This document shows, piece after piece, positions 2,003-64,000 of a stretch of DNA of 64,000 bases (position 1 is the first letter of the stretch; every line of letters begins with the position of its first letter). The DNA is taken from contig OZ024809.1 of NCBI GenBank assembly GCA_964017045.1, positions 10,377,012 to 10,441,011 on the forward strand, in the 5' to 3' direction. The position numbers were made by a program, and so were the translations under genes. The notes beneath the pieces are model-generated. The model searched no databases. It was given only the letters and a program-made list of their open reading frames with translations, and was not told the DNA's origin. The DNA is from Omphiscola glabra (Eukaryota > Mollusca > Gastropoda > Lymnaeidae).

Positions 2003-3681
2003 CTCAAGAGTCTTATCCTCGCAGTCGAAGCAGTATCTAGTGATTCCTCTGTCCCTATGCCGTATGTAAGATTTTAGTCTTAGTTCGATTTCTGAACTCC
2101 ACCATTTACACCCAACACAGGAAACCTCACAGTAGGAACAGGGAATTCTCGTTAAAGGATATATTTAATCTACTTGAGTGTATTTCAAAAGTTAAGATCT
2201 TCCATGTGCCCTGGACATTGGTCTCTGATCCCCTTCCACCCCCACCCCCAGTTTTACTCTACCATTCCGTAATGACTTCCAGACTTCTTCCTCTTCTCCC
2301 GTCTTCCATTATGACGTAAACACTTCCTCCCCACCCACCGGGCACCTCCTCCACCACTGTGCCCCTCCCTGGCCTCCCCAGCGTGGGTTCTGTCTGACTC
2401 GGCAATTTCAAGTGGTCGAGTTGTTAGCCCTAAGGCCTACGCTCCACATGTAGCCATGTACATCATACATCTGGACGGAAGCACGGACGCAACTCTTCGA
2501 ATTTCAGACATTTCTCTTTATTTATATTAATCGTTTCCCTTATTATCCTTTAGGTTCCATTCAAATATTGTGTCAGTACTGAATGGGAAGTGTGTGTGTT
2601 AAGGGGGGGGGGGGGGGAAATGCGTTGATTTTTGGAGATCCGGCGTATGGGTGTGTATGGCATAGGAGAGGTGGTGGCAGGGGTCTCCGGGCAGAAAGTA
2701 GGAGTACGTACATTCATGAACGAATTTTTCAATGTTTTCTGTTTCAAATTACAACTCACGCTCAGGAACTCGTCAGGCAATTATTCCCCGAAAGTCTTGC
2801 TACAAGACTAAGTTCCGAAAGTCTTGCTACAAGACTAAGTTGAAGGAATGACGAAAAATTCAAACAAGGATTTTCAGAAAAATAAGTACGATGAATATTA
2901 AATAACAACACATTTACATTTATTTGGATCAATAAAAATATATTTTTTTAAATCTTATCTTATCTTATGAGTATTACATCAATAAATGAATGGAGTCTAG
3001 AACTAAAAGTAACACATGGTAAAAAAATATAGTAATTTTAAATTCTTTCGATGAGGAAAGACAAATATTAAACAAATATATATATGATATATACAATGAT
3101 GAGTATCGAATAAAGATACATGAGGGTAAGCGATTGCACACAGATTAAAATCTCAAATGTAAAAAGTGGGGGGGGGGGGCGGGGGAGTTACAGAAAAACT
3201 TTTTTGTGACGCGTAATTTTATTTGGTAAGTCCAAATAAATGTTTAATAATGGACTAGATATCAGCGAATGGAACCAAGAGTCGCAAGAAGAAAATAACA
3301 AAATATGAATATCAGACGTATTTAAATTCATATATGGGCCTGCACTACACGCATGGTTTTTGTGCGACTTATTTTTCCTGTGACCTTTTTCCTTTTCCAT
3401 AATCGTTTAGACTTTTTAAACATTTCCTGAACCACCCCCCCCCCCCCGGCCCATTCCTCATCCCCCAAGGATATTAAGTACCCCTACTGTAATAAAATAA
3501 AAAAATATTTAAAATATTTGTTATGGTAAATTTTTCCATCCTTCTTTAACTTTCTAGAAACTAAAAAAAAAAATAGCCATATGATTCATCAATATGTAAA
3601 TATTACAAATAATGCATAAAATATATTCCACCCCCAAAACAAACAACAACAACAAAAAAAAACAACTAATGAAACTCGTAT

Positions 3682-4134
3682 CCGGAAATTTGATCGAAAG
3701 AAATTTGATCGAACGGAAATTTGGTCGCAGTGGCGTAGTGAGGGGGGGGCAAAGGGGGCATCATGCCCCGGGCGCTACTCACAAACGGGCGCCAAATGGT
3801 ATATTTTATTATAATATTGTATGGTTTTCGAATGGGGGGGCGCTAAAAAGGTATTGGGGGCGCTAAAAAGGTATTGTGCCCCGGGCGCGAGTTACGTTCG
3901 CTACGCCACTGTTTGGTCGAATCGTTTTTTTTAGTTTATACGTTAAAATTTTGCGTCAAATTTCTTTTTGAACGCATTATTTTGTTTGACTATATAGTAT
4001 AGTGCGTTCAAAAAGAAATTTGACGAAAGTTTTAACGTCTGAACTGAAAAAAAAGATTCGACCAAATTTCCGTTCGATCAAATTACCGTCGATCAATTTT
4101 CCGTCGACGAAATTTCTTTCGATCAAATTTCCGG
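3682..4134. mobile_element. Foldback element with long inverted arms, interrupted by a MITE
   Basis: The left arm (3682-3727 plus 3912 to about 3976) and right arm (about 4008-4134) are near reverse complements: both contain CCGGAAATTTGATCGAAAG, GGAAATTTGGTCGAATC and CAAATTTCTTTTTGAACGCA in mirrored order. A loop of about 30 bp separates them. The left arm is split by the 184-bp MITE at 3728-3911. The right arm has an extra segment of about 30 bp not present on the left. Confidence 0.75.
3728..3911. mobile_element. hAT-type MITE nested in the foldback element
   Basis: 184 bp with inverted ends CAGTGGCGTAGTGAGG and GTTCGCTACGCCACTG. It is flanked on both sides by the exact 8-mer tttggtcg (3720-3727, 3912-3919). 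Removing it together with one flank copy restores a continuous left arm of the surrounding foldback element, so it inserted later. Confidence 0.85.
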
Positions 4135-5499
4135 TAACCAATTAAACTATCTTTAATCTGCTATTACTAATAAAATGCATATACAGGACGTTCTCTCTTT
4201 ACGTCGAGGTTTCGTTTTTTCAACGACGATGAACGCTGAAATCCGCCGCTAAGCACCCAACCCACACGTAAACAACATGTGACGTATGCAATTTTTACAT
4301 TTCATTATAAAATGGAGTCGTAGTTTATTGACATATGAGTAGGCATAGTGATAGAGAGATTGACTTGACGCCGACTGACGGTCACGTGATTGAAGTCGCT
4401 TGCGTGCTGTTCCGTTAGCTAGGCTACATGATGCAATCGTACCCACTAATGGCGCGCTGAAAAAAAAAACAGCTGGAACATTTCATTAAAAAAATTATTA
4501 TTACTTTTTTTTTTGTTTTTTTGCTCCCTGTGGCAACCGCCGTAACATGGTATCAACCTATTTTTAAAAAAAAATTAATTAATTACACATTTCTGAGTTT
4601 TCCCGCAGCCTTGGTATTGAACCTGGTTGAGAACCATTGTTCTAAATAAAATCTCACAGCCCCGTTGACCATTCACCCTGTCAGCCGCCTCCCCCCCCCC
4701 TCCGCCTTCCCCCTTTCCGCCTCACCCCCCCCTCCAAACAAATTGCCCCACCATCTCCCTTTTTAAAAAAATGTCAGTCTACCATTCATTCAAAGGTTGG
4801 TCAAACTTAGCCAACATGTGTCTGGGAACATCGTCGTCATGGTCTGCAAAACTTGACGGAAGTGGTCTATCTTGGGGGCATGCCATTGTATCAAACGTTT
4901 CAAATGGCGCAATTCATTGTTTCTCCATCCGCAGCTTGGACACAGCAGACGTTGTTACAGTGACCATAAGCGGCGCCCCGTCCGGCGGGAAGAAAGAACA
5001 ACAAATACACGTATCTGGTAAGAACTGAAAGACCACCGGGTGGTCAACCCAGACATGTGAAGTGTCAGAACTTATCAACGACCAGGTGTCGGCCGGCTGA
5101 TCGTCACGAGAGCACAATGACCGCCCCCTCCTGCCACCTCCACGCTCAAGGCTCATCCGTCCTGGAGGACACTCTAGGCGTAAAGCTAATCCCATGTGTT
5201 AATGTCGTTAATCCCGCCAAGGATGTGCAGACGATGACCGGGGAGCCGCCAAGTCGGTATGATGAGGACATCACTTGATGATGTCACCGTCCGACATCCT
5301 GTGACGATTAAATAAGATTAAGATTACCTGTGTGTATCGATTGATAACCAGTTGTGACTAGGTGTGTGCAGTGTACAGACATTTTCATGACAAATGTGGG
5401 TGGGAGGGGGGGTAGAAGAGGTGGTGAGGGCATCGGAGCCCTCAGGGCTATCCCATTTACTCAGGAAGAAATAACTATTCTAGAGGTTTCTATCAATTA

Positions 5500-10160: not shown

Positions 10161-10168
10161 GCGCGAAA
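10161..10168 (-). promoter_or_regulatory. E2F-like site
   Basis: GCGCGAAA, reverse complement TTTCGCGC, fits the TTTSSCGC consensus and lies 445 bp upstream of the first POLA1 ATG. Together with TTTCCCGCC at 9089 and GCGGGAAA at 10632 it makes three consensus sites around the gene's 5' end. Function is inferred. Confidence 0.35.
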
Positions 10169-10612: not shown

Positions 10613-13600
10613 ATGTACACAAAGGAAAACTGCGGGAAAATGACACCGACAAAGGAAGGAGCAGGAAATTCTCAAGAAAGTGACGGTAATTAATGCTTAT
10701 AATTTAGTATATGACTCACTAAGTGGCTTGATAAGTTCAATAGTTTATTTGTGAATTTTTTCGATCAGGTCAGTATTGTTTTAAAATGCATAGTTACAAT
10801 TTGTTTGTGACACACGGCCGAACTCGAGGTGCGCCTGGCTTCCTCTTGCTGTCTTTCTTTATCTGTTTGTTGATGAGTCAACGATCTTTGTCAGCGCTGG
10901 ACAATGTTGGTGACGGGTGCTCCGCAGGGCATGGAAAAGTCATCAATGTGATCGTCTTTATTTTAAGTGCATTGATTAATACCGTGTGAAAACTTACTAG
11001 ATATGTTAAAAATTTTTGTTTGATTAATAGTTTTAATACTTTTCTACTTCTTGGTTGAAGACAAAGGTTGGTGGATCTTAATTGATAATTCGGTAATTGC
11101 ACGCTACTGGTCCCTCTGTCGCTCACCCTAACCGGAACCCTAAATCTATCATAAACAAAGGGAAGTGACTCCCAATAAGGGGACCACAGAAGCACATTAG
11201 CGGATAATTCATTATAAATTTTTGTTGTTGATGGATTGACTTGTTCAATTCATGATTCTGTTGGCATAATTATAGATATCCTAAGGGATAATGGGAAGTA
11301 TAGTGTTCTAAGTGAACTTGAACCTCATTTTAAAAAAGTCTGATAAGAAAGCCTTTTATTATTTTAAGGTCAACAATTATATTATTATTATTATACATTG
11401 TAAGTAATGTTGGTACTCTTGCAGTTCAGGTGCGTCAATGCAAAGAGAATGTGTCAATGCAATGGGAATGCGCCATGTCATTTACATGTTTTTTTCTGTT
11501 TTGGATTCACTCCTTAGGTGTAGGCTTAGGAAAAGATTTAGTCATTTGGGGTTCAGGTTATGTTTAGGGATATTTTTAACATTTTATTCTCCTAATTTTG
11601 GCAACCAAGATAGCGGCTGTGTTATATGTCATGACATATTCTCATAGCATTTACCAGTATTTCTGATAGAATTTTGTATTATTGCGTATAGACTTGCGTG
11701 TATTCTTTATAAAATTTAGTCCAGACAGTATTAGTTAACTAATTACATCAACATTAAATTGTACAGCACTGACTTTTCTTTTTACTGATTTTTACGGCTC
11801 CCATTGGTACAAAGCAGGTAAATGATCTCTCCATTTTTAAAAAAATTCATCCTACATGTCAGCTTGCAATTATCTTTATACACCCCCAAACATGCCTACT
11901 GATAGGTGGAAGGCTGGGATGTTAAAAGACCCTTTAGAAATAACTTATAAACGAAAATAAGGGCAGTATAATTAAGTATTAGTTATCTATCACTGCCTGT
12001 ATTTTAATTTGATGAAGAATACACATAAGTTTACATATAATGTGAAATTTGATCAGAAATACACATGAACTGCAAGTTTACCCTAATGTTGATATTCAGA
12101 TTTGGAATAGGATTGCTGCTAACAGTTACTTATAGTAGTATAGTATATCATAGTACAGTTATTAACTTTTAAACAGTTGTTGTGATTAGGTCTACATGTA
12201 CATGGACATTTGATCTATTTTTATGTTAATATATGCATATAAATCACACAAGATTTTCATGATTAGACACCATATAATTTTCCACAGAATTTTCCCTGTG
12301 TTAAGTCTGTTTGAGTTTAGCAGTTTATGTTTAAGACCAATAGTATAAACTTTTACCACATAAAATATGTCACCTGTATGATAGTCTTTAATTATCAATG
12401 GATAGCAATGTATTAAAGGGTTTGTATTGAGTTAGCAACACATTTCTTTTGCAAATTTTATTAATTGGTATTATTAGATGTAACTTTATGGTGCAATAAA
12501 TGATAATCAGCAAAACCAACATACTTTTATTGGATTTTTCATAGCTGATTTTTTTAGCAGTCAGTTCATACCAGCCTGTTTTACAAGTAGTGCAATGTTT
12601 ATTATTATATTTTTCATTTCTATTGATATAATGCCTATCTTATATATATTTGTTATTCTTAGCTCAATTGGATTTCTTAACAACCAAAGCAGGCCTGCAC
12701 ATTTAACTAACTGCTGTCAGCTTTCACTTTGTGGCCCTCGAAGCAACGAAATATTCTCTAGCACCCCCCTTCCCCAAATTTATTATGGCCTGCCTTACAT
12801 TTGAGTTGTGCAGGCCTGAACCAAAGCATACATTGTATTACTGATAATTTTTATCAGTCAGTGCTTTCTGTCTTCATACCAGAACTAACAGAATTGTGTT
12901 GTTTTCTTAGGGGATGCTTGTTCTCTTGCGCAAAGTAGATCCAGACGACAAAAGATTGATAAGAAAGGCAGGCTATCTGCATTTGAAAAGTTGCGCCAAG
13001 CTAAAGAAAAAGGCATAAAAAATAAGTATGAGGTAAGTGATATGATATATATGTGGTTCAAATATATAAATGATATAACAATAAAATGTCAAAAAAGTCT
13101 TTCCAAAATACCTTTAATGATATTTCATGTATTATTCTTCTTCATGTAATTGATTCTCAGGTGGAGGAGGAGAAAAGTGTGTATGAAGTTGTTGACGAAG
13201 GAGAATACTCAGAACTTGTAAAGCAGCGTCAAGAGGATGATTGGATTGTTGATGATGGTAAAAAGCTTGTTCAGGAGTTAAAACGAAAGTGTTTCATGAT
13301 TTGTATGCTAGTTATTTAGGTAAACCATGCCCCGATTTTTTTCCATGAAAGTTTTTTAACTAAAGATTTCCTATTGCAGATGGTGCGGGATATGTTGAAG
13401 ATGGCAGAGAAATATTTGATGATGAAATGGAGGAGGAGGCACCAACAGCATCTAGTAAGGTTCATTCATCAGTAGACATTTTCACATTTCAACTAATAAA
13501 ATCATTGTGTGTGATGTTGTTGTAAACATCTAAATCATAATTGTGTGTTGTTGTTTTTAACATGTGTTTGAATTTTTTCATTAGAGAAGACAAAACAAGA

Positions 13601-14245
13601 TCATAAAAAGAACAAGAATATTGTGCGTCCTGGTACCAAACCGAAGCAGGATATCAAATCAATGTTTGCGGCCGCAGCTGTCAGCTCCAAGATGAAACCA
13701 GAGGTGTGTTTTTTTCCTTTATATAAGGATATCAAGTTGTTTCAACACCCCCTCCCCCCATTGATTTATTTTAATATGCTTAATATTTATATAATGTGTT
13801 TTTTTTTCCTTTTCAGAAGGATGTTAGTTTAGCAAATGATGATATCTTGGATGGTCTTCTGGGGGATTTAAATAAAACTTCAGTCCCTAAGCTCGGCAAG
13901 TCACAGGAGAAGACAGTTAAAAGGTAGGGTATTATATTAAATTATTTAGATTTAGATTTTTTATGAGTTATTTTCAAAATGGGATATCTTATGAGTATAC
14001 AACCGTTTGGTGATGTAATTACAGATCAGCCTACAATCCTTTTAAATTGGAACCTAAGCCGGCCAAACTGCAACCAGTGACTGCTCTCAGCAAACCAATC
14101 AAAAGAGAACTGGACTTTCCAATTGATGAGTTGCCTGTTAGAAAGATGGCCCCACTGCCAAAAAGTAAAGATTTTACAAAGATAAAAGTCGAGCCAGAAG
14201 ACCCCATCCCCTCTGTTAAACAAAGAAAAGATATAAACAAAACAG
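10613..14245 (+). CDS. POLA1: POLA1 N-terminal region (exons 1-7)
   Basis: Encodes the poorly ordered N-terminus. Conserved blocks in order: [13 protein letters not shown], then [36 protein letters not shown] and [13 protein letters not shown]. The last resembles the acidic DDIL-type motif by which Pol1 contacts Ctf4/AND-1 in yeast (inference). The exon 1/2 join gives [16 protein letters not shown], in register with other animal POLA1 proteins. Exon 7 is lysine/proline-rich and poorly conserved. Confidence 0.85.
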
Positions 14246-17200
14246 GTTAGCACACTATCCACCCCAGACTTCATTCTTGTGATGAAATCATTCCAGTCAG
14301 ATAAATCTATTTTTACCTTATGTGAGTTTGTTGACACAAACAGTTCACCCCTTTTGTTTTTGTGAACACATCTTATAAGGGGGAAAAAATCAACTTTTCC
14401 ACTCATGGTGTTAGGTGTGTGTTCATCCTGAGTTGTGTTCACTTGTCCAGTATAAAGGACTGCTTCATTTTTTACTTTTCAATTCTCACTCTTGACTGCA
14501 TTATGGATACTACTTTTTTTTCTGTGTTGAATTATCTCACTCTTGGTTGCACTGGGATACAAAGCTATTTTTTTTGTGTGTGGACTCAGTTACCCTGTTA
14601 TCAAGCTTCACTACTGACCAGGTTGCATACTTTGGATTCATTCACTTTTACAGTTATGTTAGTATCAAAGAGCTATTAGGACCTGATTCATTTTTGCTGA
14701 TGGGATTATGCAAGCTAGTTGAGATGGAAATATTTAGCATTTTTTATTGCCCTGTGCTTCCCGATGGCTGTTGGTTTGTTTTGTGTATTGTCATAGCTGT
14801 TCTAGACCTAGTTAAGGTTACAGCTGCTTAGCAGCTTGTTTACATTGCCTTTAAGCTGTAGGTCACCGAGGATTGTTAGCTTGTGCTATGGTTCATGCTT
14901 CATATCACAGCCAATAATCCCCAGTGAAGAGCAGCCGATAATCCCCAGTGAAGAGCAGCTGATAATCCCCCAGTGAAGAGCAGAATTTTATAAGATTACT
15001 GACTTGAAAGGTTGTCCACTGGGTTGTATTGGTTTGTGATTTGCTCAATTTCATATCACAGTCGATGCTTCCCCGGGGGCAGCTTTGATGTCATAAATGA
15101 ATTTAACTGCAGCAAGTATGTGGCCAACTGTTCTTACGGGCGTATTGGTCTTGTGATGTGTTTTAATGTCCCATATCACAGTCAATACACCCCTGAGACT
15201 TTTTGGAAATTCACCAGTGTACAGTATATAAGTTTAAACATTTATGTTGGGACGCCCCATGGTTTAAATATGGTCGTAGAGGTTTACAGGCTGTGATGTG
15301 TTCAAATACATTCATATCACAGCCAGTATACCCCTGTGAACAGTTTTATGAACTTGTATCTTGGCAATTGCTTGTAGTTGATGGTGTATGAAGATAAGAA
15401 AACTAACCAGATGTGAGTACACATTGAGAGCATTGTGGATCTACTACCCTGTCTGATGAATGTGATGTGCTTTTTTTGTCCATATCACAATCATTGGATG
15501 GGTGTGTGGGTTTTTCATTTACTTTTTGTGAAAAAGAATATCCAAGTTTCTACAAGGGACGACTTGTGCCCCTTCTTCCCTATTTGATGGATGTGATGTG
15601 TTGTAAGCCATATCACAGCCATTAGGTGGGCAGGAAGAGATATCCAGCATCATTATTACATCAACTCATCAAGTTAGATTTGAGTACAGCTTAAGGAAGT
15701 TGATTATACCTTTAGACATTTTGAGTGCACCTTGGAATCATCTAGTGGCTTTTTCTTGCCCTCTTATTGACATTGATATGTTGTTAGGCCATATCACAGT
15801 CATTAGGTGGGGAAGAAGAGTTACCATTCCGTATGAGCTGATGTTCACCAATTTTGTTGTGAGTATCGACAGTCCTAAAGATTTTATCACTATTCTACCC
15901 GTTTGATGGATGTGATTTGTTTTGATATCATATCACAGCCATTAGGTGGGCAGTATGGTTGCTTATTCTCAGCTTCGGGTTGTCTCATCCTGTACATGTA
16001 AATTTCTTTCATTGTACCGGATGTGATATTGAGTGATTGCATTGAGACCTGCACTCCATTATCTCATTTTCCCAATATTTGTACAGGAATGACAACAAGC
16101 AGATGTTTGTTTAATAATTCAGACTGGCTCATTATGCAGATGCTGAAACGAATACATTTTTCTTCCCACATAATAGTTGTGATTTGTTAATGTTTCATAT
16201 CACAGCCATTAGTGGGCAGAAAGGAGTGTCAATGTCAGCTTATTTATGAGTGCCCTTTTATTGCATTTTTATTACACTTTTCATTCATTCATTATTTCAT
16301 TACACAAACAATTTTTATCTCGATTTCAATTTAATACTTTTTCCATGACTGTCTTGATGACACCCATCTTTTATCTCCATGTTTTTTTGTTTTTTTTTGC
16401 TGATATCTTTGAAAGTTGGCATGCTATGTCACCTGTCAATGTGGATGTGTTTTTTTTCATCACAGCCATTTTGATGGGCAACATGGCTAGCAATACATCA
16501 CTTGGCTTACATCACTTACATCCATTTTCAATGCATTTGTACTGACATTGTTGAATTTGCATTTCCTGTCAATCTTGATGTGATGGTGTTGATGCTGACA
16601 TCACAGCCAGTTTGATGGGTAAAGCAAATTTGGGAACGTTGTTAGTAGCTTGTATGCTTTGTCCCGGGCAGTATGTATAATTGTTCATAATTGGTTTCGA
16701 AATACTTCTTTTGAGGTACTCTCGCCACTTGTCTGCTTGGCTGTGTTGGTGTTGCACTGCATCACAGCCAAACTGATGAGTGGTGGGAGTAACCTAGCCT
16801 GCAGATGAAAACAGCAAGGAAAAGGTTGCTGGAAACATCAGGCGGGTTGTGATCATGTTCCATTGAGAAATTTTCATATCACACTCGTTTGGTGGGCCCT
16901 GACGACTGTTCATTCATCAATACATTATTTTTTGCCCAAATTTTTTTTGCTTTGCCGGTCCACATCTTGTTTTCAAAATGTTTTATTAGGCTATTATATC
17001 TTGATTAACATCTTAAGGCTTCCATTATCAATATAAGAAGTGGGCCCAAAACTTTATTTTCAGACGTTGGTTCAGATGATTTAGCTGGCATAGACTTTGA
17101 TGATGAAGTAGAGTTTCCTGAAACATCCATCCTCGAGGAGGATAAACAGCATGAACTTGAAGATATTAAACCCAAAATCAGGTATGTAAATTTGTGCAGC

Positions 17201-29200: not shown

Positions 29201-32200
29201 ATTCATTGGAGAATTTTTAACTCATTCATTATAACTTTTTAAAAAGCAATATATGGGTAAAATTTCGCAATAACATTTCCAATTTTTACCAAGATGTGTT
29301 ATTATTTTACAGTTCAAGTCAACAACTTCTAAAATTGATTGAGCTAACTTTGATGGACTCGACCTACATCCTTCAAATCATCTATGAGCTCAACGCCATC
29401 CCCCTTGCCTTGCAGATCACAAACATTTGCGGGAATGTCATGGTGAGAACACTGTTAAGAGTTGATGTGACTAGACATTTATTCATTGAACTATTCTACT
29501 ACGGTCATGCCTGCAGTTGCCATTCATCTGCACCTGTGGTTAAAGGAAATATACAGTGGAGCAAGTTATGATGTTCAGGCTTGAAAAGAAAGGACAGGAC
29601 AATTCAAAGGAGGTGTTGACTGATTTATAATATTCAGGTGGTAAGCAGTAATTAGGTGGGTTTTTTTAAATTTGACTGTTATAGTGGGAACAAGATGGCC
29701 ATATCTAACTCTGCCGAGTCCCCTAAGTAAGGAGATAAAGTCATTCCCCTATGATTGTGGGTTGGTTTCTTTTTTTCTGAATCTTGACTGTGCATTGTGT
29801 GTAAGCACCTGACTCATTAAAACCCTCAACAGCACATAAGCTTCTTCTGGAAGTTTCAAACTGATATTTATAAAGAGTAAATCCGTTCTTTCATATGCTC
29901 CTGACATAATTGGATCAACTTCCTGACTTTTCTTCAACAAACTACTCAATTGTTTGAGTTATAAGATTAAATGATATTAAATGAACACCTGTTCTTAACT
30001 CAGTCTAGGACATTAATGGGAGGCAGATCAGAGAGGAACGAGTGGCTTTTGTTGCATGCATTCCATGAAAAGCATTACATCTGTCCAGACAAAGAATTCA
30101 AGAAAAATCAAACTGTGAGTGATTTGTTTTTAACAATAATAAAGTAAATATGTTCTCTTGATAAAATATATTTTTAAAAAAGGCCTACAGACTTGTGTAT
30201 TTAACTATGTCCTCATGAAATAGGGATAGAACCTTTTAGGTAGAATGATTGAGTACCTATTTTACAACACACATTACAATCGGTCTATTCCATTTTCTCT
30301 AGCCTCTAGTGATGGAAGATGATGAGGAACTTGATAAAGGTGGAACCAAAAAGGCAGCTGGTGGCAAACGTAAACCTGCCTATGCAGGTGGTCTCGTTTT
30401 GGAACCCAAGAAAGGTAACTCCGTCCTAGTCAAATCAGTAGCAATTTCTGTTATGTTTGTGTGATACTTTTTTGTGTGCCTTGATGCTGGTGGGATAGTT
30501 TTTGTGTGCCTTGATGCTGGTGGGATAGTTTTTGTGTGCCTTGATGCTGGTGGGATAGTTTTTGTTTCTTTTATAATTCTGCAGTCGTAATTTAACAAAT
30601 CAAGAATTGTGCGAAATATGCTATACAAAATCTGCGACCATTGGAGACTTACCACTTACATTGCCTGGCAATATGCAATTATAATTTGGTTGAACTGTTT
30701 GTCCCCAGGTTTCTATGACACATTCATTTTGCTACTAGATTTCAACTCCTTGTATCCATCTATCATCCAAGAGTACAACATCTGCTTCACAACAATATCC
30801 AGGGTTCCAGAGTCCCATACAGAAAATGTGAGCAACATTCACTTTTAATTAATGTTTGAAACCTTACACATCTCTCCGTTAGTCATGGCCATGGTTTAAA
30901 AAAAAATATTAAACAGGCTGTCAACACAATAAAACCCAAAGGCAAACTAATTGTTCGGTCAGCACTGAGTAATGAATTCCCCAATGTTTGCTGCCCACTT
31001 GTCCCTGCCCCAAATGTTTGCTGCCCACTTGTCCCTGCCCCAAATGTTTGCTGCCCACTTGTCCCTGCCCCAAATGTTTGCTGCCCACTTGTCCCTGCCC
31101 CAAATGTTTGTTGCCCACTTGTCCCTGCCCCAAATGTTTGCTTCCAACTTGTCCCTGCCCCAAATGTTTGCTGCCCACTTGTCCCTGCCCCAAATGTTTG
31201 TTGCCCACTTGTCCCTGCCCCAAATGTTTGCTGCCCACTTGTCCCTGCCCCAAATGTTTGCTGCCCACTTGTCCCTGCCCCAAATGTTTGCTGCCCACTT
31301 GTCCCTTCCCTAAAATGTTTGCTTCCAACTTGTCCCTGCCCCAAATGTTTGCTGCCCACTTGTCCCTGCCCCAAATGTTTGCTGCCCACTTGTCCCTGCC
31401 CCAAATGTTTGCTGCCCACTTGTCCCTGCCCCAAATGTTTGCTTCCAACTTGTCCTTGCTTTGTCAGAATAGCAGACATGCTTCCATTTAACCTGATTTT
31501 TTTTTTTTTTTTTGGAAGGCAGAATAGGTTTTAATTCATATCATTTATCAATTTGAATCAATATCTTTGCAGCAGAGTATTTTCATGCTTTTAATTTGAC
31601 CATCAAAATAATAATTTAAAAAATTATTCACCTACAGCACAGATTGAAATCCATCATTTTAGCCAATATTCTTTATTACAAATGCATAATTTTATGACTG
31701 CACATAGATGGAAGATAAATTAACTGGTATTTGTTGCTATGTACGTACGTATTAGTATTTTAAATTATTGCTGACTTTCTCAGCGCACACCACTGATTCA
31801 TAAAATTATTCAGTTTTGTCGGATATCAATCTAGAATAATCCAGAGTGGATGTTGTCCAACCCGCGCAAGAAAGGCAATACAGTGTAACCCCTTTTAAAA
31901 ACTTTTTACGACAACATCAACTAAAGCTTTACTTTGGCAGGAAAAAAGACAATATTATTTCAATTTTTTTTACCGTAATTTATCCTTAATTTTACAGTGT
32001 ACTAATATCGATACCCGGTGGGGATAATAATTCCCAAGTAAATCTTTCTTGTCTGCCCTGCTCTAATTGTACACTATGCTGTGCTTTCATTCTTTGCTCT
32101 CTCTTTGTGTGCTTGGTCACGTATGCACCAAATGCACACAAAAGAAAACATTCATTACCCACAGTGCTCTTTTCCAACTTATGGTTGTTCTACTAAGCCT

Positions 32201-38200: not shown

Positions 38201-38989
38201 GATGTTAATATTATTTTAGGAGATAGCACCCAATGTTTTAACTGACAATTATCTTGATTATGACAAAATTATGGGTTATTAAAATTTAAACATCAATTTA
38301 AGTTTTCAAGTCTAACTGTTCTTCTTTGACTCAAATTCGCTTACTATACCTGAGATTTTATTGCAATTACTACAATTTCTCTCCCCAATAGTACACTGAT
38401 TCAGCATTGTACAACCAAATTTGCTTCTATGACTACATATTTGATGTCCAAAAGGCCACAACTTATTTGAATGAGACTGAGAAAAGTAATTATAATTTCA
38501 ATTTTATTTTTACTTTAAAAAGAACTATTCATAAAGGATTTATCAAAGTTGAAAGACTGGCTAATGCTGATTTTCTAACCATATTTACTAACCTCTGCTG
38601 AAAGTTTGTAAATAAAATAACATTTTTTAACGCTTATCATTTTCCTTTGGAGACTTGCAGTTTTTCATTTCCACCTAATTTCATCAATTTGTTTCCATGA
38701 GTCTAGCTTGAAATAATTCTCAACCATTTAAAAAGTTTGTTGAAATGATAAGTAGATTTATACTGCCATTTATCTATATGGCATAACCTTTTTTAAAATG
38801 ACCATGTCCATATTCACATTTCTTTCAGTTTTTGCTCGCAAGATTAACCCTGAGATAATGGATGTGTATAGAGAGCTCAAACACATCACCTCTCGGTGGT
38901 TGGATAGAAGCGCCTATTCAAATGTGGATCTTGGCAAACTGTTTCAAAATCTTGGGCTTTTAAGGGTTAAACTTGAGAGAGGACTATAA
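10613..38989 (+). CDS. POLA1: DNA polymerase alpha catalytic subunit, 39 coding exons
   Basis: Family B replicative polymerase; with primase it extends RNA primers at origins and lagging strands in the nucleus. Exons: 10613-10685, 12911-13032, 13161-13257, 13380-13454, 13585-13703, 13817-13923, 14025-14245, 17064-17181, 21754-21920, 23683-23795, 23946-24059, 24517-24591, 25251-25324, 25962-26026, 26383-26420, 26689-26808, 27188-27272, 27475-27536, 27706-27801, 27989-28105, 28445-28629, 29313-29442, 30004-30114, 30303-30414, 30709-30827, 32353-32451, 32756-32926, 33716-33748, 34057-34149, 34314-34519, 34853-34985, 35950-36081, 36200-36275, 36593-36691, 36832-37010, 37450-37581, 37874-37990, 38392-38485, 38829-38989. 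All introns are GT-AG and all phases join; total 4440 nt, 1479 residues (human about 1462). Catalytic motifs: [10 protein letters not shown] (D876), KLTANSMYG (963-971), YGDTDS (D1015, D1017). No exonuclease D-x-E, as usual for alpha. The start could instead be ATG 10640 (residue 10), which directly follows an E2F-like GCGGGAAA. The short exon 8-9 junction means an extra exon in intron 8 cannot be excluded. Confidence 0.96.
10632..10639 (-). promoter_or_regulatory. E2F-like site abutting the second in-frame ATG
   Basis: GCGGGAAA (reverse complement TTTCCCGC) immediately precedes ATG 10640. If transcription starts close by, ATG 10640 would be the natural start and the protein 1470 residues long. 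Confidence 0.35.
14861..14929 (+). ncRNA. mir-2: miR-2-like hairpin 1
   Basis: Predicted mature 3' arm from 14903: TATCACAGCCAATAATCCCC. The 5' arm GTCACCGAGGATTGTTAGC pairs with it. The 3' arm tail is part of a 24-bp tandem repeat (14908-14983). Confidence 0.82.
14908..14983. repeat. 24-25 bp triplication of the hairpin 1 3' tail
   Basis: Three copies of a unit CAG-CCRATAATCCCCAGTGAAGAG. The first overlaps the predicted mature microRNA from its seventh base; copies 2 and 3 lack the UAUCACAG start. Confidence 0.85.
15011..15083 (+). ncRNA. mir-2: miR-2-like hairpin 2
   Basis: Predicted mature from 15054: TATCACAGTCGATGCTTCCC. The 5' arm TGGGTTGTATTGGTTTGTG pairs using several G-U pairs; loop about 8 nt. 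Confidence 0.8.
15131..15198 (+). ncRNA. mir-2: miR-2-like hairpin 3
   Basis: Predicted mature from 15174: TATCACAGTCAATACACCCC. The 5' arm GGGCGTATTGGTCTTGTGAT pairs almost throughout; loop about 11 nt. Confidence 0.85.
15271..15340 (+). ncRNA. mir-2: miR-2-like hairpin 4
   Basis: Predicted mature from 15315: TATCACAGCCAGTATACCCC. The 5' arm GGTTTACAGGCTGTGATGTG pairs with the seed side without mismatch. Confidence 0.85.
15441..15510 (+). ncRNA. miR-2-like hairpin 5, variant seed
   Basis: Predicted mature from 15483: TATCACAATCATTGGATGGG. The last seed base is A instead of G. The 5' arm GTCTGATGAATGTGATGTG keeps pairing by a matching change (ATTGTGA opposite TGTGAT), so the hairpin is preserved although the seed changed. 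Confidence 0.75.
15570..15640 (+). ncRNA. mir-2: miR-2-like hairpin 6
   Basis: Predicted mature from 15611: TATCACAGCCATTAGGTGGG. 27 of 29 stem positions pair counting G-U; the mismatch nearest the loop is the tenth position out from it. Loop of 8 nt. Confidence 0.9.
15750..15820 (+). ncRNA. mir-2: miR-2-like hairpin 7
   Basis: Predicted mature from 15792: TATCACAGTCATTAGGTGGG. The lower stem is CTTGCCCTCTTATTGAC against TCATTAGGTGGGGAAG. Closely related to hairpins 6, 8 and 9. Confidence 0.85.
15890..15960 (+). ncRNA. mir-2: miR-2-like hairpin 8
   Basis: Predicted mature from 15931: TATCACAGCCATTAGGTGGG, identical to hairpin 6 over the first 23 nt. The loop and 5' arm differ from hairpin 6, so this is not a recent perfect duplicate. 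Confidence 0.88.
16155..16227 (+). ncRNA. mir-2: miR-2-like hairpin 9
   Basis: Predicted mature from 16198: TATCACAGCCATTAGTGGGC, as hairpins 6 and 8 with one G deleted. The 5' arm CTTCCCACATAATAGTTGTG pairs well. Confidence 0.87.
16416..16489 (+). ncRNA. mir-2: miR-2-like hairpin 10 (miR-13-like 3' half)
   Basis: Predicted mature from 16458: CATCACAGCCATTTTGATGG. The TTTTGATG core is the same as in insect miR-13. The stem is less regular than in hairpins 3-9. Confidence 0.8.
16554..16630 (+). ncRNA. mir-2: miR-2-like hairpin 11 (canonical miR-2 3' half)
   Basis: Predicted mature from 16599: CATCACAGCCAGTTTGATGG, closest in the window to canonical miR-2. The 5' arm TTCCTGTCAATCTTGATGTG pairs; loop about 10 nt. 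Confidence 0.88.
16721..16790 (+). ncRNA. mir-2: miR-2-like hairpin 12
   Basis: Predicted mature from 16760: CATCACAGCCAAACTGATGA. The 5' arm CTCGCCACTTGTCTGCTTGG pairs with the GATGAGTGGTGGGAG side. Confidence 0.86.
16822..16909 (+). ncRNA. miR-2-like hairpin 13, variant seed, larger loop
   Basis: Predicted mature from 16877: TATCACACTCGTTTGGTGGG. Seed is AUCACAC and the loop is about 17 nt. Pairing of GGCGGGTTGTGATCATG with the 3' arm is weaker. It may be a divergent or decaying member. Confidence 0.6.
18320..18375 (+). other. Degenerate hammerhead ribozyme-like core
   Basis: CTGATGA (18327-18333), then a GGC/GCC mini-stem with a 4-nt loop, then GAAAC (18345-18349), then ACA...TGT able to form a short third stem. 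This is the conserved order of a type I hammerhead. Against it: an extra A before stem II, G at the cleavage position where H is required, and weak stem I. It is likely a retroelement remnant (Penelope-like elements carry such motifs) rather than an active ribozyme. Confidence 0.3.
21140..21400 (+). mobile_element. Decayed LINE 3' coding end
   Basis: Broken frames show KGRPGD, then [11 protein letters not shown] and, one frame off, W-x12-KKVARQ. This follows the GRPR...L-x-WR pattern typical of the last residues of non-LTR retrotransposon ORFs. Stops and frameshifts throughout. Confidence 0.4.
21754..28629 (+). CDS. POLA1: POLA1 N-terminal and inactive exonuclease-like domains (exons 9-21)
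   Basis: Starts with VDSSQLPLV and FYWLDAYED, the conserved entry to the folded core, then [54 protein letters not shown] and [12 protein letters not shown]. At exonuclease motif I the acidic D-x-E is replaced by TLNL; at motif II the usual asparagine is Asp ([10 protein letters not shown]). The domain is expected to be structural, without proofreading. Confidence 0.9.
22476..22552. repeat. 46-bp direct duplication
   Basis: Two adjacent copies of ATCTCAGCTTTTTAGCTTTG with flanks, in POLA1 intron 9. Confidence 0.75.
22714..22955. repeat. 38-bp minisatellite, about 6 copies
   Basis: Unit contains CTATGGGAGCTAGCCAT and GTTGCTACTTTTGCCAAT. Copies diverge and one is interrupted. Lies in POLA1 intron 9. 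Confidence 0.85.
26041..26107. repeat. Perfect 24-bp inverted repeat
   Basis: Arms 26041-26064 and 26084-26107 are exact reverse complements (TATTTAGAATTGTTTCAAC...), separated by a T-rich spacer of 19 bases. It begins 15 bases after the exon 14 boundary of POLA1. In the pre-mRNA it would form a stable hairpin beside the 5' splice site. Confidence 0.9.
28326..28392. repeat. (AC)n followed by a C homopolymer
   Basis: An AC microsatellite followed by a run of more than 20 C, then an A run, about 50 bp upstream of the exon 21 acceptor of POLA1. Confidence 0.95.
29313..34985 (+). CDS. POLA1: POLA1 polymerase core: palm, fingers, thumb start (exons 22-31)
   Basis: Motif [11 protein letters not shown] lies in exon 25, motif [15 protein letters not shown] in exon 27 and motif C YGDTDSIM in exon 29. 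Exon 28 is only 33 nt ([11 protein letters not shown]). KKKKYAAL and [14 protein letters not shown] follow in exon 30. All metal-binding aspartates are present, so the enzyme should be active. Intron 25 carries a 30-bp minisatellite and intron 27 a complete hAT-type element. Confidence 0.93.
30470..30565. repeat. 30-bp minisatellite, about 3 copies
   Basis: Unit GTGTGCCTTGATGCTGGTGG plus ATAGTTTTT, starting about 55 bp after the exon 24 donor of POLA1. Confidence 0.9.
30984..31456. repeat. 30-bp minisatellite, about 16 copies
   Basis: Unit AAATGTTTGCTGCCCACTTG plus TCCCTGCCCC. Because 30 is a multiple of three, several frames on both strands stay open for up to about 200 codons; these are repeat artefacts, not genes. 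One copy has a one-base insertion near 31311. Lies in POLA1 intron 25. Confidence 0.95.
33168..33541. mobile_element. hAT-type element with exact 8-bp target duplication
   Basis: 374 bp with inverted ends CAGGGGTGGGCAAAC and GTTTGCCCACCCCCG, flanked by gtgtaggg on both sides (33160-33167, 33542-33549). The right part carries GGCCGCATGCGACCCTCAGG, typical of Charlie-like hAT elements. No transposase. Inserted in POLA1 intron 27. Confidence 0.85.
35095..35711. mobile_element. Tc1/mariner-pogo-type non-autonomous element
   Basis: 617 bp with inverted ends CAGTAGAAGTCC and GGACTTCTACTG, flanked by TA dinucleotides as expected for this superfamily. Repeated TAGTCCGGCA/GCCGGATTATC motifs near both ends. 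No coding frame. Lies in POLA1 intron 31. Confidence 0.8.
35767..35886. repeat. 39-bp minisatellite, 3 copies
   Basis: Unit contains GAATTAAATCAAATGACTT and TGTTCTTCAGTCTACAT, about 65 bp before the exon 32 acceptor of POLA1. Confidence 0.9.
36593..38989 (+). CDS. POLA1: POLA1 C-terminal zinc modules and tail (exons 34-39)
   Basis: CysA pairs are C1294-x4-C1299 (exon 35) and C1323-x4-C1328 (exon 36). CysB pairs are C1361-x4-C1366 and C1384-x2-C1387 (exon 37). In the family this region binds the B subunit and primase. Human CysA starts C-x2-C, so the first pair here is two residues wider. The tail [11 protein letters not shown] and [18 protein letters not shown] matches the family end; stop TAA at 38987. 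Confidence 0.9.
37577..37692. repeat. 22-bp minisatellite over the POLA1 exon 36 donor, 5 copies
   Basis: Unit CAGGTAAACACAGTGCAAAT plus GT. The first CAG|GTAAAC is the real exon 36 donor (37581/37582). Later copies keep CAG|GTAAAC or CAG|GTGAGC, giving three further good donors at 22-bp steps. Using any of the next two would add 22 or 44 nt and shift the frame. Confidence 0.9.
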
Positions 38990-46087: not shown

Positions 46088-49000
46088 TCAGTGACCTCAC
46101 GAACTGATCCTGAAGTAATCAGCTTTTTTGATGAACCATGGACGCCAACACCTGGAACTGCCTTCAAGCTGCTCATGTCTGCCAGGCTGTGTGCTGCATT
46201 GTGGAGCGTTGTGTCTGATTGTGACGAGACTTACAACTACTGGGAGCCAGTAAGATAACGACAGCTTAATCCACTACAGCCCGAATCAGTGCAACATGCT
46301 TAATTGGCAGTCCTCACTAATCTGTGTCTAGGAAAATCAGTCCTCACTAATCTGTGTCTAGGAAAATCAGTCCTCACTAATCTGTGTCTAGGAAAATCAG
46401 TCCTCACTAATCTGTGTCTAGGAAAATTAGTCCTCCCTAATCTCTGTCTAGAAGAATATTTGAAGTGAAGGCCAACCAACCGCAAAATAATTAAGTCTGG
46501 ACCATTTAGTGTAAAGTATTGAAAGGCTCAATGGTCAAAAAATTTTGTGAGACTCTACATACCATAATTAGATTTATTAATTCCCAAGTCCCAAAGCACT
46601 AACAGAACAAAATATCATTGCAGAATTTTTTTCTAAAGAATATTGCACTTAATTCTTTTAACCATGTCAGACTCGGTGATTGTATTGAACTGATTCATAA
46701 ACACGCATCCTTAAAGAAACTGAGGTCTTCTACACAGTCGTTACTTACAATTCCCAGTGTGGATGAACACAGAAAAAAGTCTTATGGAGGGTGCTCTTTT
46801 GAAGCAATAGCGCCATAATTATGGAATAGTTTGTCTCAATCTTTGAGGGGTATTGAAAAGGATAAAACATCATTTAAGAAACATTTAAAAACTTTTTTGT
46901 TTAAACAGATTTATGAAAACCAGAGCGCAGTGAGCATGCTAAAGTAGAATGGATACCAGCGCTATATAAATATCCAATCAATCATTCAAACCATGTCAGA
47001 CCTAGTGATTGTATTGACATTGTTGTTATTGCCTTATTTATTGATTTCTCAAAGTTTTCCCACAGGCCCACTTCTTGAATTATGGGAGAGGTTTTCAGAC
47101 GTGGGAATACTCGCCAGAGTACGCCATTCGCTCTTACGCTTACATCTTGCTTCACGTCCTCCCCATGAAGTTATGTTCTACGTTTCTGGGTGACAATACA
47201 GTACGTATCTCCAGTCATTTCAAATAACATCGATTCAATAATGCTAAAGTACAAGATATTATTATCTTTCAATCAGAAAAAAACCATAATGGTATGACCA
47301 GTATTAGATAAAAGACTTTACAGGGCAATAAGAATAAATAGAGAAAACTTGGATCTAGTCGGGCCATAGAAGAGCAAGATGCTTTAGATTTAACATTGTG
47401 ATACTTCATCATCTTCATCATTAGAGTTTAATTTATAAAATTTGAAAAAATGATCTTTTTTTAGATCTTTGTTTTTTACATGACAAGATGCATGCTTGGA
47501 GTTGTCTGTGCAATATCTGAGATGCTGTTCTATAGGTAAGTTTGTCTGTGTAATAATGTTGACATGTTAGATTAGAAACATTTTAACTTAATTTTGACTC
47601 AGTTCATGTTTTGTATAAAATAAAACTTATGTCATACTCAGTAAAAAAAATATCTTGTGAGCTGCAAGCGAAATGGAATGAATAATTAAATTTATCTTTG
47701 AAAACTCCAGAGGTGTGTGCAAGGTATTTGGACCCAATGCTGGACGCCTGACCCTCATACTTCTGCTGTTTTCTGCTGGAATGTTTGCCTCAGCCTCTGC
47801 CTTTCTGCCAAGTAGTTTCTCCATGTACATGACCATGATAGCTTATGGCAGCTGGTTTGTTGGCGATGTACATGTACGTAAATGGCTGGCTTGTTGGCAA
47901 TGTTCATGTATGTAAATGGCTGGCTTGTTGGCAATGTTAATGTACGTAAATGGCTGGCTTGTTGCCGATGTTGATGTACGTAAATGGCTGGCTTGTTGGC
48001 TGTAGGAAAATGATTGTTATAATTGAAATATATTTCTGGTAGTGCTCCATTGCTGTAGATAGAAAGCTAAGATAATTTATTCACTCTGTTATTCAACCAA
48101 ATTACTTTCAGGTGAGCATTTTGGCAATCGCCTGCAGCACCATCTTAGGTTGGCCATTCGCCGCAGCCTTAGGGTGAGTAACATACACTTTAATTTTCAA
48201 TTACATTTTGGGTTGGTAACATACAGTTTAATTCAATTACATTTTGGATTGGTAACATACAGTTTAATTCAATTACATTTTGGGCTGTATACAAGTGGAA
48301 AAAAGATATAGAAAATAATTCAATAATATTCTTATTTTTATATGTACACTACCATAAAAACAGCACAAAACCCCATAGATAAGTGTCGTCCCCCCCCCCC
48401 CCCCGGGAAAAGTGTATAAGTTTAGCAATTGACTTTTAAAATCATTTGTCAGGATCCCCATAGCTTTTGATGTTCTGGTCTTGAAGAAAGACTATGTGCA
48501 CTTTTTGAAATGGAGTCTTGTATCTTTATTGGTCTTCCTGGTAAGTATGTGGAGTTGTTTGTATGGATTATATGGTTACATGTTTGTATGGTGTTCATGA
48601 TTGTATGATGTACATGTTTGTACGGTATACATGCTTGTATGGTATACATGCTTGTATAGTGTTGTTCCAAACGCAAACTTGAATGGTATAACCATGTGAT
48701 AATAAAACAAGGGCTCGCCACAGAAATCATGCAGGGCACAACTAGAGGAGGGAGAAGAAGAGGAAGACAGAGAAAAAGAAGGGAAGATAACATCAAAGAG
48801 TGGACGGGACTAAAACTAGTCGACGCTATGCGTAGTGCAGAAGACAGAGAGGAATGGAGAAGGATAGTCTTCATGTCAGCTGTGGCGCCCCAATGGTCCA
48901 AAGACTAAGGGACATGATGATGATGGTGTTGTTATGTAGATGATGTGTAAATGTCATCTTTTCCCCTTGAATGAACTCTAGCTGACCCCAAGCTCGGAAC

Positions 49001-60851: not shown

Positions 60852-63800
60852 CATGTCCTATAGATATTGTGTTCAATGAGTGAATGGTGTTGGCTATCAT
60901 GTCCTATAGATATTGTGTTCAATGAGTGAATGATGTTGGCTATCATGTCCTATAGATTTTGTGTTCAATGAGTGAATGATGTTGGCTATCATGTCCTATG
61001 GATATTGTGTTCAATGAGTGAATGGTGTTGGCTATCATGTCCTATAGATATTGTGTTCAATGAGTGAATGGTGTTGGCTATCATGTCCTATAGATATTGT
61101 GTTCAATGAGTGAATGATGTTGGCTATCCTGTCCTATAGATATTGTGTTCAATGAGTGAATGGTGTTGGCTATCCTGTCCTATAGATATTGTGTTCAATG
61201 AGTGAATGGTGTTGGCTATCCTGTCCTATAGATATTGTGTTCAATGAGTGAATGGTGTTGGCTATCATGTCCTATAGATATTGTGTTCAATGAGTGAATG
61301 GTGTTGGCTATCATGTCCTATATATATTGTGTTCAATGAGTGAATGGTGTTGGCTATCCTGTCCTATAGATATTGTGTTCAATGAGTGAATGGTGTTGGC
61401 TATCCTGTCCTATAGATATTGTGTTCAATGAGTGAATGGTGTTGGCTATCATGTCCTATAGATATTGTGTTCAATGAGTGAATGGTGTTGGCTATCATGT
61501 CCTATAGATATTGTGTTCAATGAGTGAATGATGTTGGCTATCCTGTCCTATAGATATTGTGTTCAATGAGTGAATGGTGTTGGCTATCCTGTCCTATAGA
61601 TATTGTGTTCAATGAGTGAATGGTGTTGGCTATCCTGTCCTATAGATATTGTGTTCAATGAGTGAATGGTGTTGGCTATCATGTCCTATAGATATTGTGT
61701 TCAATGAGTGAATGGTGTTGGCTATCATGTCCTATAGATATTGTGTTCAATGAGTGAATGGTGTTGGCTATCCTGTCCTATAGATATTGTGTTCAATGAG
61801 TGAATGATGTTGGCTATCATGTCCTATAGATATTGTGTTCAATGAGTGAATGATGTTGGCTATCCTGTCCTATAGATTTTGTGTTCAATGAGTGAATGAT
61901 GTTGGCTATCATGTCCTATAGATATTGTGTTCAATGAGTGAATGATGTTGGCTATCCTGTCCTATAGATATTGTGTTCAATGAGTGAATGGTGTTGGCTA
62001 TCATGTCCTATAGATATTGTGTTCAATGAGTGAATGATGTTGGCTATCCTGTCCTATAGATATTGTGTTCAATGAGTGAATGATGTTGGCTATCATGTCC
62101 TATAGATATTGTGTTCAATGAGTGAATGGTGTTGGCTATCCTGTCCTATAGATATTGTGTTCAATGAGTTAATGGTGTTGGCTATCCTGTCCTATAGATA
62201 TTGTGTTCAATGAGTGAATGATGTTGGCTATCATGTCCTATAGATATTGTGTTCAATGAGTGAATGGTGTTGGCTATCCTGTCCTATAGATATTGTGTTC
62301 AATGAGTGAATGGTGTTGGCTATCATGTCCTATAGATATTGTGTTCAATGAGTGAATGATGTTGGCTATCCTGTCCTATAGATATTGTGTTCAATGAGTG
62401 AATGGTGTTGGCTATCCTGTCCTATAGATATTGTGTTCAATGAGTGAATGGTGTTGGCTATCCTGTCCTATAGATATTGTGTTCAATGAGTGAATGATGT
62501 TGGCTATCCTGTCCTATAGATATTGTGTTCAATGAGTGAATGATGTTGGCTATCCTGTCCTATAGATATTGTGTTCAATGAGTGAATGATGTTGGCTATC
62601 ATGTCCTATAGATATTGTGTTCAATGAGTGAATGATATTGGCTATCATGTCCTATAGATATTGTGTTCAATGAGTGAATGATGTTGGCTATCCTGTCCTA
62701 TAGATATTGTGTTCAATGAGTGAATGATGTTGGCTATCATGTCCTATAGATATTGTGTTCAATGAGTGAATGGTGTTGGCTATCCTGTCCTATAGATATT
62801 GTGTTCAATGAGTGAATGATGTTGGCTATCCTGTCCTATAGATATGGTGTTCAATGAGTGAATGATGTTGGCTATCCTGTCCTATAGATATTGTGTTCAA
62901 TGAGTGAATGATGCTGGCTATCCTGTCCTATAGATATTGTGTTCAATGAGTGAATGATGTTGGCTATCCTGTCCTATAGATATTGTGTTCAATGAGTGAA
63001 TGATGTTGGCTATCCTGTCCTATAGATATGGTGTTCAATGAGTGAATGATGTTGGCTATCCTGTCCTATAGATATTGTGTTCAATGAGTGAATGATGTTG
63101 GCTATCCTGTCCTATAGATATTGTGTTCAATGAGTGAATGATGTTGGCTATCCTGTCCTATAGATATTGTGTTCAATGAGTGAATGATGTTGACTATCCT
63201 GTCCTATAGATATTGTGTTCAATGAGTGAATGATGTTGGCTATCCTGTCCTATAGATATGGTGTTCAATGAGTGAATGATGTTGGCTATCATGTCCTATA
63301 GATATTGTGTTCAATGAGTGAATGGTGTTGGCTATCATGTCCTATGGATATTGTGTTCAATGAGTGAATGGTGTTGGCTATCATGTCCTATGGATATTGT
63401 GTTCAATGAGTGAATGATGTTGGCTATCATGTCCTATGGATATTGTGTTCAAGGAGTGAATGGTGTTGGCTATCATGTCCTATGGATATTGTGTTCAATG
63501 AGTGAATGGTGTTGGCTATCATGTCCTATGGATATTGTGTTCAATGAGTGAATTATGTTGGCTATCATGTCCTATGGATATTGTGTTTAAGGAGTGAATG
63601 GTGTTGGCTATCCTGTCCTATAGATATTGTGTTCAATGAGTGAATGATGTTGGCTATCATGTCCTATAGATATTGTGTTCAATGAGTGAATGATGTTGGC
63701 TATCCTGTCCTATAGATATTGTGTTCAATGAGTGAATGGTGTTGGCTATCCTGTCCTATAGATATTGTGTTCAATGAGTGAATGATGTTGGCTATCCTGT

Positions 63801-64000
63801 CCTATAGATATTTTGTTCAATGAGTGAATGGTGTTGGCTATCATGTCCTATGGATATTGTGTTCAATGAGTGAATGGTGGTGGCTATCATGTCCTATAGA
63901 TATTGTGTTCAATGAGTGAATGATGTTGGCTATCCTGTCCTATAGATATTGTGTTCAATGAGTGAATGGTGTTGGCTATCCTGTCCTATAGATATTGTGT
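60852..64000. repeat. 46-bp satellite-like array, about 68 copies, continuing past the window
   Basis: Unit TATAGATATTGTGTTCAATG plus AGTGAATGGTGTTGGCTATC plus MTGTCC. Variation is confined mainly to three sites: TATRGAT, GAATGRTG and CTATCMTGTCC. Some rare variants repeat at multiples of the unit (GATATGGTG at 62841, 63025 and 63255), a sign of local multi-unit duplication. No unique spacers. Confidence 0.97.

Follow-up and report, generated by a model that had tools for sequence, protein, structure and literature searches.

Does an intron of a DNA replication gene hold a large cluster of working microRNAs, and would such a cluster be produced together with its host? This question is raised by thirteen stem-loops with a common seed in the DNA polymerase alpha gene (POLA1) of the snail Omphiscola glabra, within a 64,000-nucleotide stretch of contig OZ024809.1 that was analyzed as a whole (the window; all positions are those of the window). 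From the letters alone, the earlier note had read this locus as an unusually expanded miR-2 cluster of a gastropod, lying in sense orientation in POLA1 intron 7. The family membership, the size of the cluster and its gastropod origin are supported by the seed sites, the folds and the POLA1 matches.

The host gene is POLA1, and its best-matching protein is POLA1 of Lymnaea stagnalis, to which the exon cores are 90.7% identical (678 residues, drawn from 19 cores in the earlier portion of the gene). Over the same 678 residues, identity is 68.0% to Bradybaena similaris, 67.0% to Biomphalaria pfeifferi, 65.8% to Physella acuta, and 58.3% to Lottia gigantea, values that make a lymnaeid other than L. 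stagnalis the likely source. The window spans the entire coding part of POLA1, from exon 1 at 10613 to an end near 38983. Exon 7 (14025..14245, plus strand) was placed by tblastn with L. stagnalis POLA1 (80% identity, approximately residues 199–274), and its acceptor and donor were read; exon 8 (17064..17181, plus strand) was placed in the same way (90% identity), with its splice sites read. The intron between them, intron 7 (14246..17063, plus strand; 2.8 kb), has GT/AG borders and contains the entire cluster. These borders, together with the end of exon 7 at 14245 and the start of exon 8 at 17064, confirm the location and the sense orientation claimed before. All of the hairpins are on the POLA1 strand, the first about 620 nt past the start of intron 7 and the last about 165 nt from its end; the cluster therefore has the placement that defines intronic microRNAs, on the sense strand of one intron of a protein-coding gene. 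Among the papers listed by searches of the main text of open-licence articles, none linked POLA1 with miR-2 as its host.

Several other features accompany the gene. A POLA1 intron carries sixteen copies of a 30-nt repeat (30979-31459) in which several frames are open. Downstream of POLA1 and on the same strand, an ALG9-like mannosyltransferase gene starts at 46100-46258 (Pfam PF03901). An open frame of 82 amino acids at 48660-48908 presumably resembles the tail of a non-LTR retrotransposon protein, and a Pfam search with this frame returned a sub-threshold, unrelated match only. A 46-nt satellite of 68 copies occupies 60854-64000 and reaches the window end.

The motif YATCACA has 40 matches on both strands of the window, 20 of them on the plus strand, and 13 of these 20 fall within 14861-16909. 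The sequence TATCACAG has eight plus-strand matches in the window, all eight within the same interval. Based on the mean YATCACA count in shuffled sequence, approximately 0.48 sites were expected on one strand of these 2049 nt against the 13 found (Poisson P 7e-15, which conveys a rough size only, as the interval was chosen post hoc). All thirteen mature 5′ ends that had been proposed are exact, each being a plus-strand YATCACA site. The predicted mature sequences begin with UAUCACA in ten members and with CAUCACA in three (m10–m12). Bases 2-7 are identical throughout, and base 8 is G in 11 of the 13. The miR-2 seed AUCACAG (bases 2-8, on the 3′ arm) is exact in those 11, while m5 (AUCACAA) and m13 (AUCACAC) keep bases 2-7 only.

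Sorted by their mature sequences, the hairpins form three groups. Given as the plus-strand interval from predicted star to mature, with the mature 5′ end in brackets, the first group consists of m1 at 14868..14924 (14903), m2 at 15022..15075 (15054), m3 at 15137..15195 (15174), and m4 at 15279..15336 (15315). The second includes m5 at 15447..15504 (15483), m6 at 15579..15632 (15611), m7 at 15759..15813 (15792), m8 at 15898..15952 (15931), m9 at 16164..16219 (16198), and m13 at 16834..16898 (16877). The third comprises m10 at 16433..16479 (16458), m11 at 16566..16620 (16599), and m12 at 16729..16781 (16760).

Folding was judged by a rule that requires the upstream arm to pair with 15 or more of the 22 mature bases, at a free energy of −20 kcal/mol or lower. 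The claim that each site forms a hairpin with the seed on its 3′ arm holds for all thirteen under this rule, which was passed by 82 of 3000 random positions. Of the remaining 27 YATCACA sites, counted over the two strands, six lie antisense within the cluster range and 21 outside it; none of the 21 passes, and the only two of the 27 that do lie on the strand opposite m3 and m4. In mononucleotide shuffles of single hairpins (200 each), the fraction was at most 0.015 in 12 of 13 hairpins; m11 is weak when taken alone (0.095, narrow fold). Wider folds gave long stems in every case, with 16 to 21 of the 22 mature bases paired and the stem continuing for 5 to 18 pairs below the mature sequence. In an animal microRNA precursor the mature sequence is expected to lie on one arm with some 16 or more of its bases paired, and this pairing was found in all thirteen hairpins. 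Once cut with 2-nt overhangs, such precursors should also retain 8 nt or more of loop. With this geometry, eleven of the hairpins have loops of 10 nt or longer, and those of m10 and m12 measure 3 nt and 6 nt, respectively. On the predicted fold, m10 would be a questionable Dicer substrate, and its processing is doubtful.

Scans of the plus strand of intron 7 added no member to the thirteen. A seed scan that allowed one mismatch yielded two passing positions, 14364, which is not miR-2-like, and 15926, which falls five bases before the mature 5′ end of m8 and merely represents that hairpin. A scan for strong hairpins returned 16 folds that include all 13 members, and the remaining three (14356, 14785, and 15961) are not miR-2-like. 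On the minus strand, a CATCACA seed lies inside a strong antisense hairpin at 15152-15158 (within m3) and again at 15292-15298 (within m4); if this strand were transcribed, the resulting antisense microRNAs would have the miR-2 seed.

At the gathering score, Rfam returned zero matches, so that no member is confirmed as RF00047. Below gathering, nine of the 13 hairpins match RF00047 at E<=5 in a search of 6 kb (m4, m5, m6, m8, m9, m10, m11, m12 at 20.2 bits, and m13), and m1, m2, m3, and m7 have no match even at this level. At E<=1 in the full 64 kb there are six RF00047 matches, all in the cluster, with m10 at 30.1 bits. For m8, the scores against RF04054 (mir-2944) and mir-2 are nearly equal (29.4 and 31.1 bits, both below gathering). 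The RF00047 model seems to have a limited reach here, because m1 is unmatched though the RNA sequenced as its counterpart bears the name miR-2c. Elsewhere in the window, low-scoring Rfam microRNA matches arise from nested inverted repeats at 3673-4143 (four pairs, with arms of 35 to 52 nt and a complementarity of 82 to 89%), which may represent a MITE-like element. Searches of plasmid and viral contigs gave no match, as expected for an animal intron.

The relationships among the copies bear on how the array may have grown. The mean pairwise identity of the 13 mature 22-mers is 62%, with m6 and m8 sharing the same 22-mer, and mature distance increases with distance in order along the array (Mantel r 0.59; 0 of 20000 permutations). 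Within intron 7, blastn found nine pairs of similar segments, eight of which sit on hairpins and one of which is a 24-nt tandem repeat at m1. This repeat (3.1 copies by TRF, 14908-14983, plus strand) begins within the 3′ arm of m1, and through it the 3′ half of m1 has two more near-copies that lack a full seed. Among the thirteen hairpins the two arms vary in concert, with two to five pair types at each of mature positions 12-22, as measured on individually predicted folds, which lean to pairing. Swapping the arms is a fairer test, yet here too the arms were cut from those folds: duplexes with the own arm averaged −21.5 versus −14.8 with swapped arms, and none of 100000 permutations was as low. 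The own 5′ arm ranked first among all arms for six of the 13 matures, second for three, and third to fifth for four. Since seven matures thus pair better with the 5′ arm of another member, the arms are partly exchangeable inside a group. A model derived from a simple alignment of the hairpin sequences contained zero base pairs and was not used.

Counterparts of three members have been sequenced in Biomphalaria glabrata. A 2025 study tabulated 63 hemolymph microRNAs of this snail, and its two tables contain just three miR-2 entries, all on scaffold KE720464 and labelled 'PCG - Intronic' (PMC12261956). They are bgl-miR-2c-3p.1 (152823-153010, 10.4 RPM), bgl-miR-2c-3p (153508-153566, 52.8 RPM), and bgl-miR-2f-3p (153672-153843, 8.0 RPM), and the best miRBase hits given for them are lgi-miR-2c and mle-miR-2f (PMC12261956). 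As tabulated, they match, respectively, m1 (21/22), m4 (22/22), and m5 (20/22, with mismatches at the first and the last base), no other part of the window matching as well, and their order is that of the three hairpins. The alignments of these 22-nt RNAs cover the predicted matures over their full length and hence begin at the predicted 5′ ends. In total, m1, m4, and m5 have 63 of 66 bases in common with the B. glabrata RNAs, set beside the 67% identity of the POLA1 protein cores of B. pfeifferi, so that conservation across species was found for each of the three members comparable with these tables. The KE720464 trio thus resembles the present array in its near-identical matures, their order, and the intronic position in a protein-coding gene; it differs in that three members are listed there versus thirteen here (PMC12261956). 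Sequenced counterparts, all of low abundance (8 to 53 RPM), are therefore at hand for three of the 13 members among these entries. The same study describes discarding predictions made by MiRDeep2 only (PMC12261956), and additional miR-2 RNAs may therefore have existed in the B. glabrata sample. When the mature stretches of m1, m3, m4, m5, and m6/m8 were queried in full texts, they were found in one paper, PMC12261956.

These counterparts strengthen the reading of the locus as a microRNA array, and they also qualify its novelty, three of its members being already present, as B. glabrata RNAs, in the tables of the 2025 paper (PMC12261956). The counterparts are 95% alike and the paralogues within the array 62%, which suggests, by sequence comparison, that the array diversified before the two snail families split. 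Its enlargement by tandem duplication would likewise predate the divergence of Lymnaeidae and Planorbidae.

The canonical arrangement, with miR-71 and miR-2 in the same transcript, was not seen within the window. At up to 3 mismatches miR-71 was not found in the 64 kb, six matches to its short motifs do not extend as miR-71, and no Rfam match in the window is named mir-71. The canonical B. glabrata cluster is described as Bgl-miR-71, 2a-1, 2d, 2b, and 2a-2 in an intron on scaffold 1244 (PMC11353429), and miR-71 of this snail is also placed on KE720056, again as intronic (PMC12261956). We infer that scaffold 1244 and KE720056, both draft scaffolds, represent one place far from KE720464. As far as these accounts go, the canonical cluster is likewise an array of miR-2 hairpins, in B. 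glabrata also between two protein-coding exons (PMC11353429), but it combines miR-71 with four miR-2 members in B. glabrata or five in Strigamia maritima (PMC11353429, PMC4244043), whereas the POLA1 array has thirteen and no miR-71 in the window. The Drosophila clusters mir-13b-1/13a/2c and mir-2a-2/2a-1/2b-2 are similar in being arrays of miR-2 that arose by duplication and are free of miR-71, but they are described with three members each and with a loss of miR-71 from the genus (PMC3763532), which is a separate event. Duplicated lophotrochozoan miR-2 genes are recorded for Capitella teleta, one of them named miR-2-o36 (PMC8915122). Because miR-71 was not found in the window and is assigned to another scaffold in B. 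glabrata, the array in POLA1 looks like an additional miR-2 locus, free of miR-71 and distinct from the canonical cluster.

It is very unlikely that the hairpins represent a local family of inverted repeats or transposons, or mere chance, instead of microRNAs. The 24-nt tandem repeat in the m1 arm and the richness of the window in tandem repeats would be compatible with such an origin, but apart from that repeat the likeness between copies sits on the hairpins, the seed is fixed while the remainder diverges with compensation, and sequencing of the m1, m4, and m5 counterparts as 22-nt RNAs makes a repeat origin very improbable for these three, as far as the published tables extend. The microRNA identity of the hairpins is accordingly very likely. 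A more serious alternative, to which we give a substantial chance somewhat short of even, is that the array works only in part (for example, m1–m9), with m10–m13 or other members being duplicated relics that do not pass through Dicer and Argonaute. The short loops of m10 and m12, the weak shuffle score of m11, and the restriction of the tabulated counterparts to m1, m4, and m5 all point in this direction; the constancy of bases 2-7 in all thirteen members, the co-variation of arms across the set, and the long stems of m10–m12 in the wider fold argue against it.

The array may also be genuine but have a promoter of its own in or near intron 7, POLA1 being a mere address with no coupling to replication, and we regard this as possible but rather improbable. 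S-phase control of the POLA1 promoter is known for other animals. A scan for the E2F motif TTTSSCGC found 12 sites in the 64 kb, two of them near exon 1: one inside this exon and another 445 nt 5′ of its ATG. The latter (10161-10168, minus strand) is the sole TTTCGCGC, an E2F-like sequence, among the 12. Two such sites near exon 1 out of 12 are too weak to support the S-phase coupling suggested in the earlier note, which leaves room for a separate promoter. As reported for the intronic miR-71/miR-2 cluster of B. glabrata, its members changed unequally after infection (PMC11353429), which implies that a common intron does not force equal output. The location of the hairpins speaks for the host promoter instead, as they follow the POLA1 strand from about 620 nt after the start of the intron to about 165 nt before its end. 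For a possible feedback on POLA1, the 1.6 kb after position 38983 contain one CTGTGAT site and neither TGTGATA nor TGTGATG.

With good confidence, we favor the reading that POLA1 intron 7 holds thirteen sense miR-2 hairpins predicted to be processed from the POLA1 pre-mRNA to silencing 22-nt microRNAs, and a working, much enlarged cluster produced together with this DNA-copying gene is likely. In the proposed mechanism, the array would be expressed in this species by transcription from the POLA1 promoter, Drosha would release as many as thirteen hairpins from intron 7 of the pre-mRNA, and the 3′ arms would then serve Dicer and Argonaute as 22-nt microRNAs. All members would have targets in common via AUCACA, with differences added by base 8 and the 3′ halves, and messages with matching seed sites would be silenced. 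The members would jointly supply one dose of RNAs that share the AUCACA seed but have diversified 3′ halves, and S-phase coupling would follow from control by the POLA1 promoter. A bolder extension, which we consider speculative and on balance unlikely, is that gastropods have an ancient second miR-2 locus, expanded thirteen-fold and fixed in POLA1, whose replication-linked pulse of AUCACA-seed RNAs would serve as an S-phase dosage clock.

Expanded microRNA clusters may raise the dose or diversify the targets. In the present array the seed is frozen and the 3′ halves fall into three groups, with at least three members nearly unchanged in another snail family according to the B. glabrata tables. 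Its position in an intron of a replication gene raises the question of whether the genomic location of a microRNA family can link it to the cell cycle, and also that of how POLA1 is spliced when a single intron of 2.8 kb may contain as many as thirteen Drosha sites. A two-locus miR-2 complement of snails, if true, would bear on the naming and orthology of this family.
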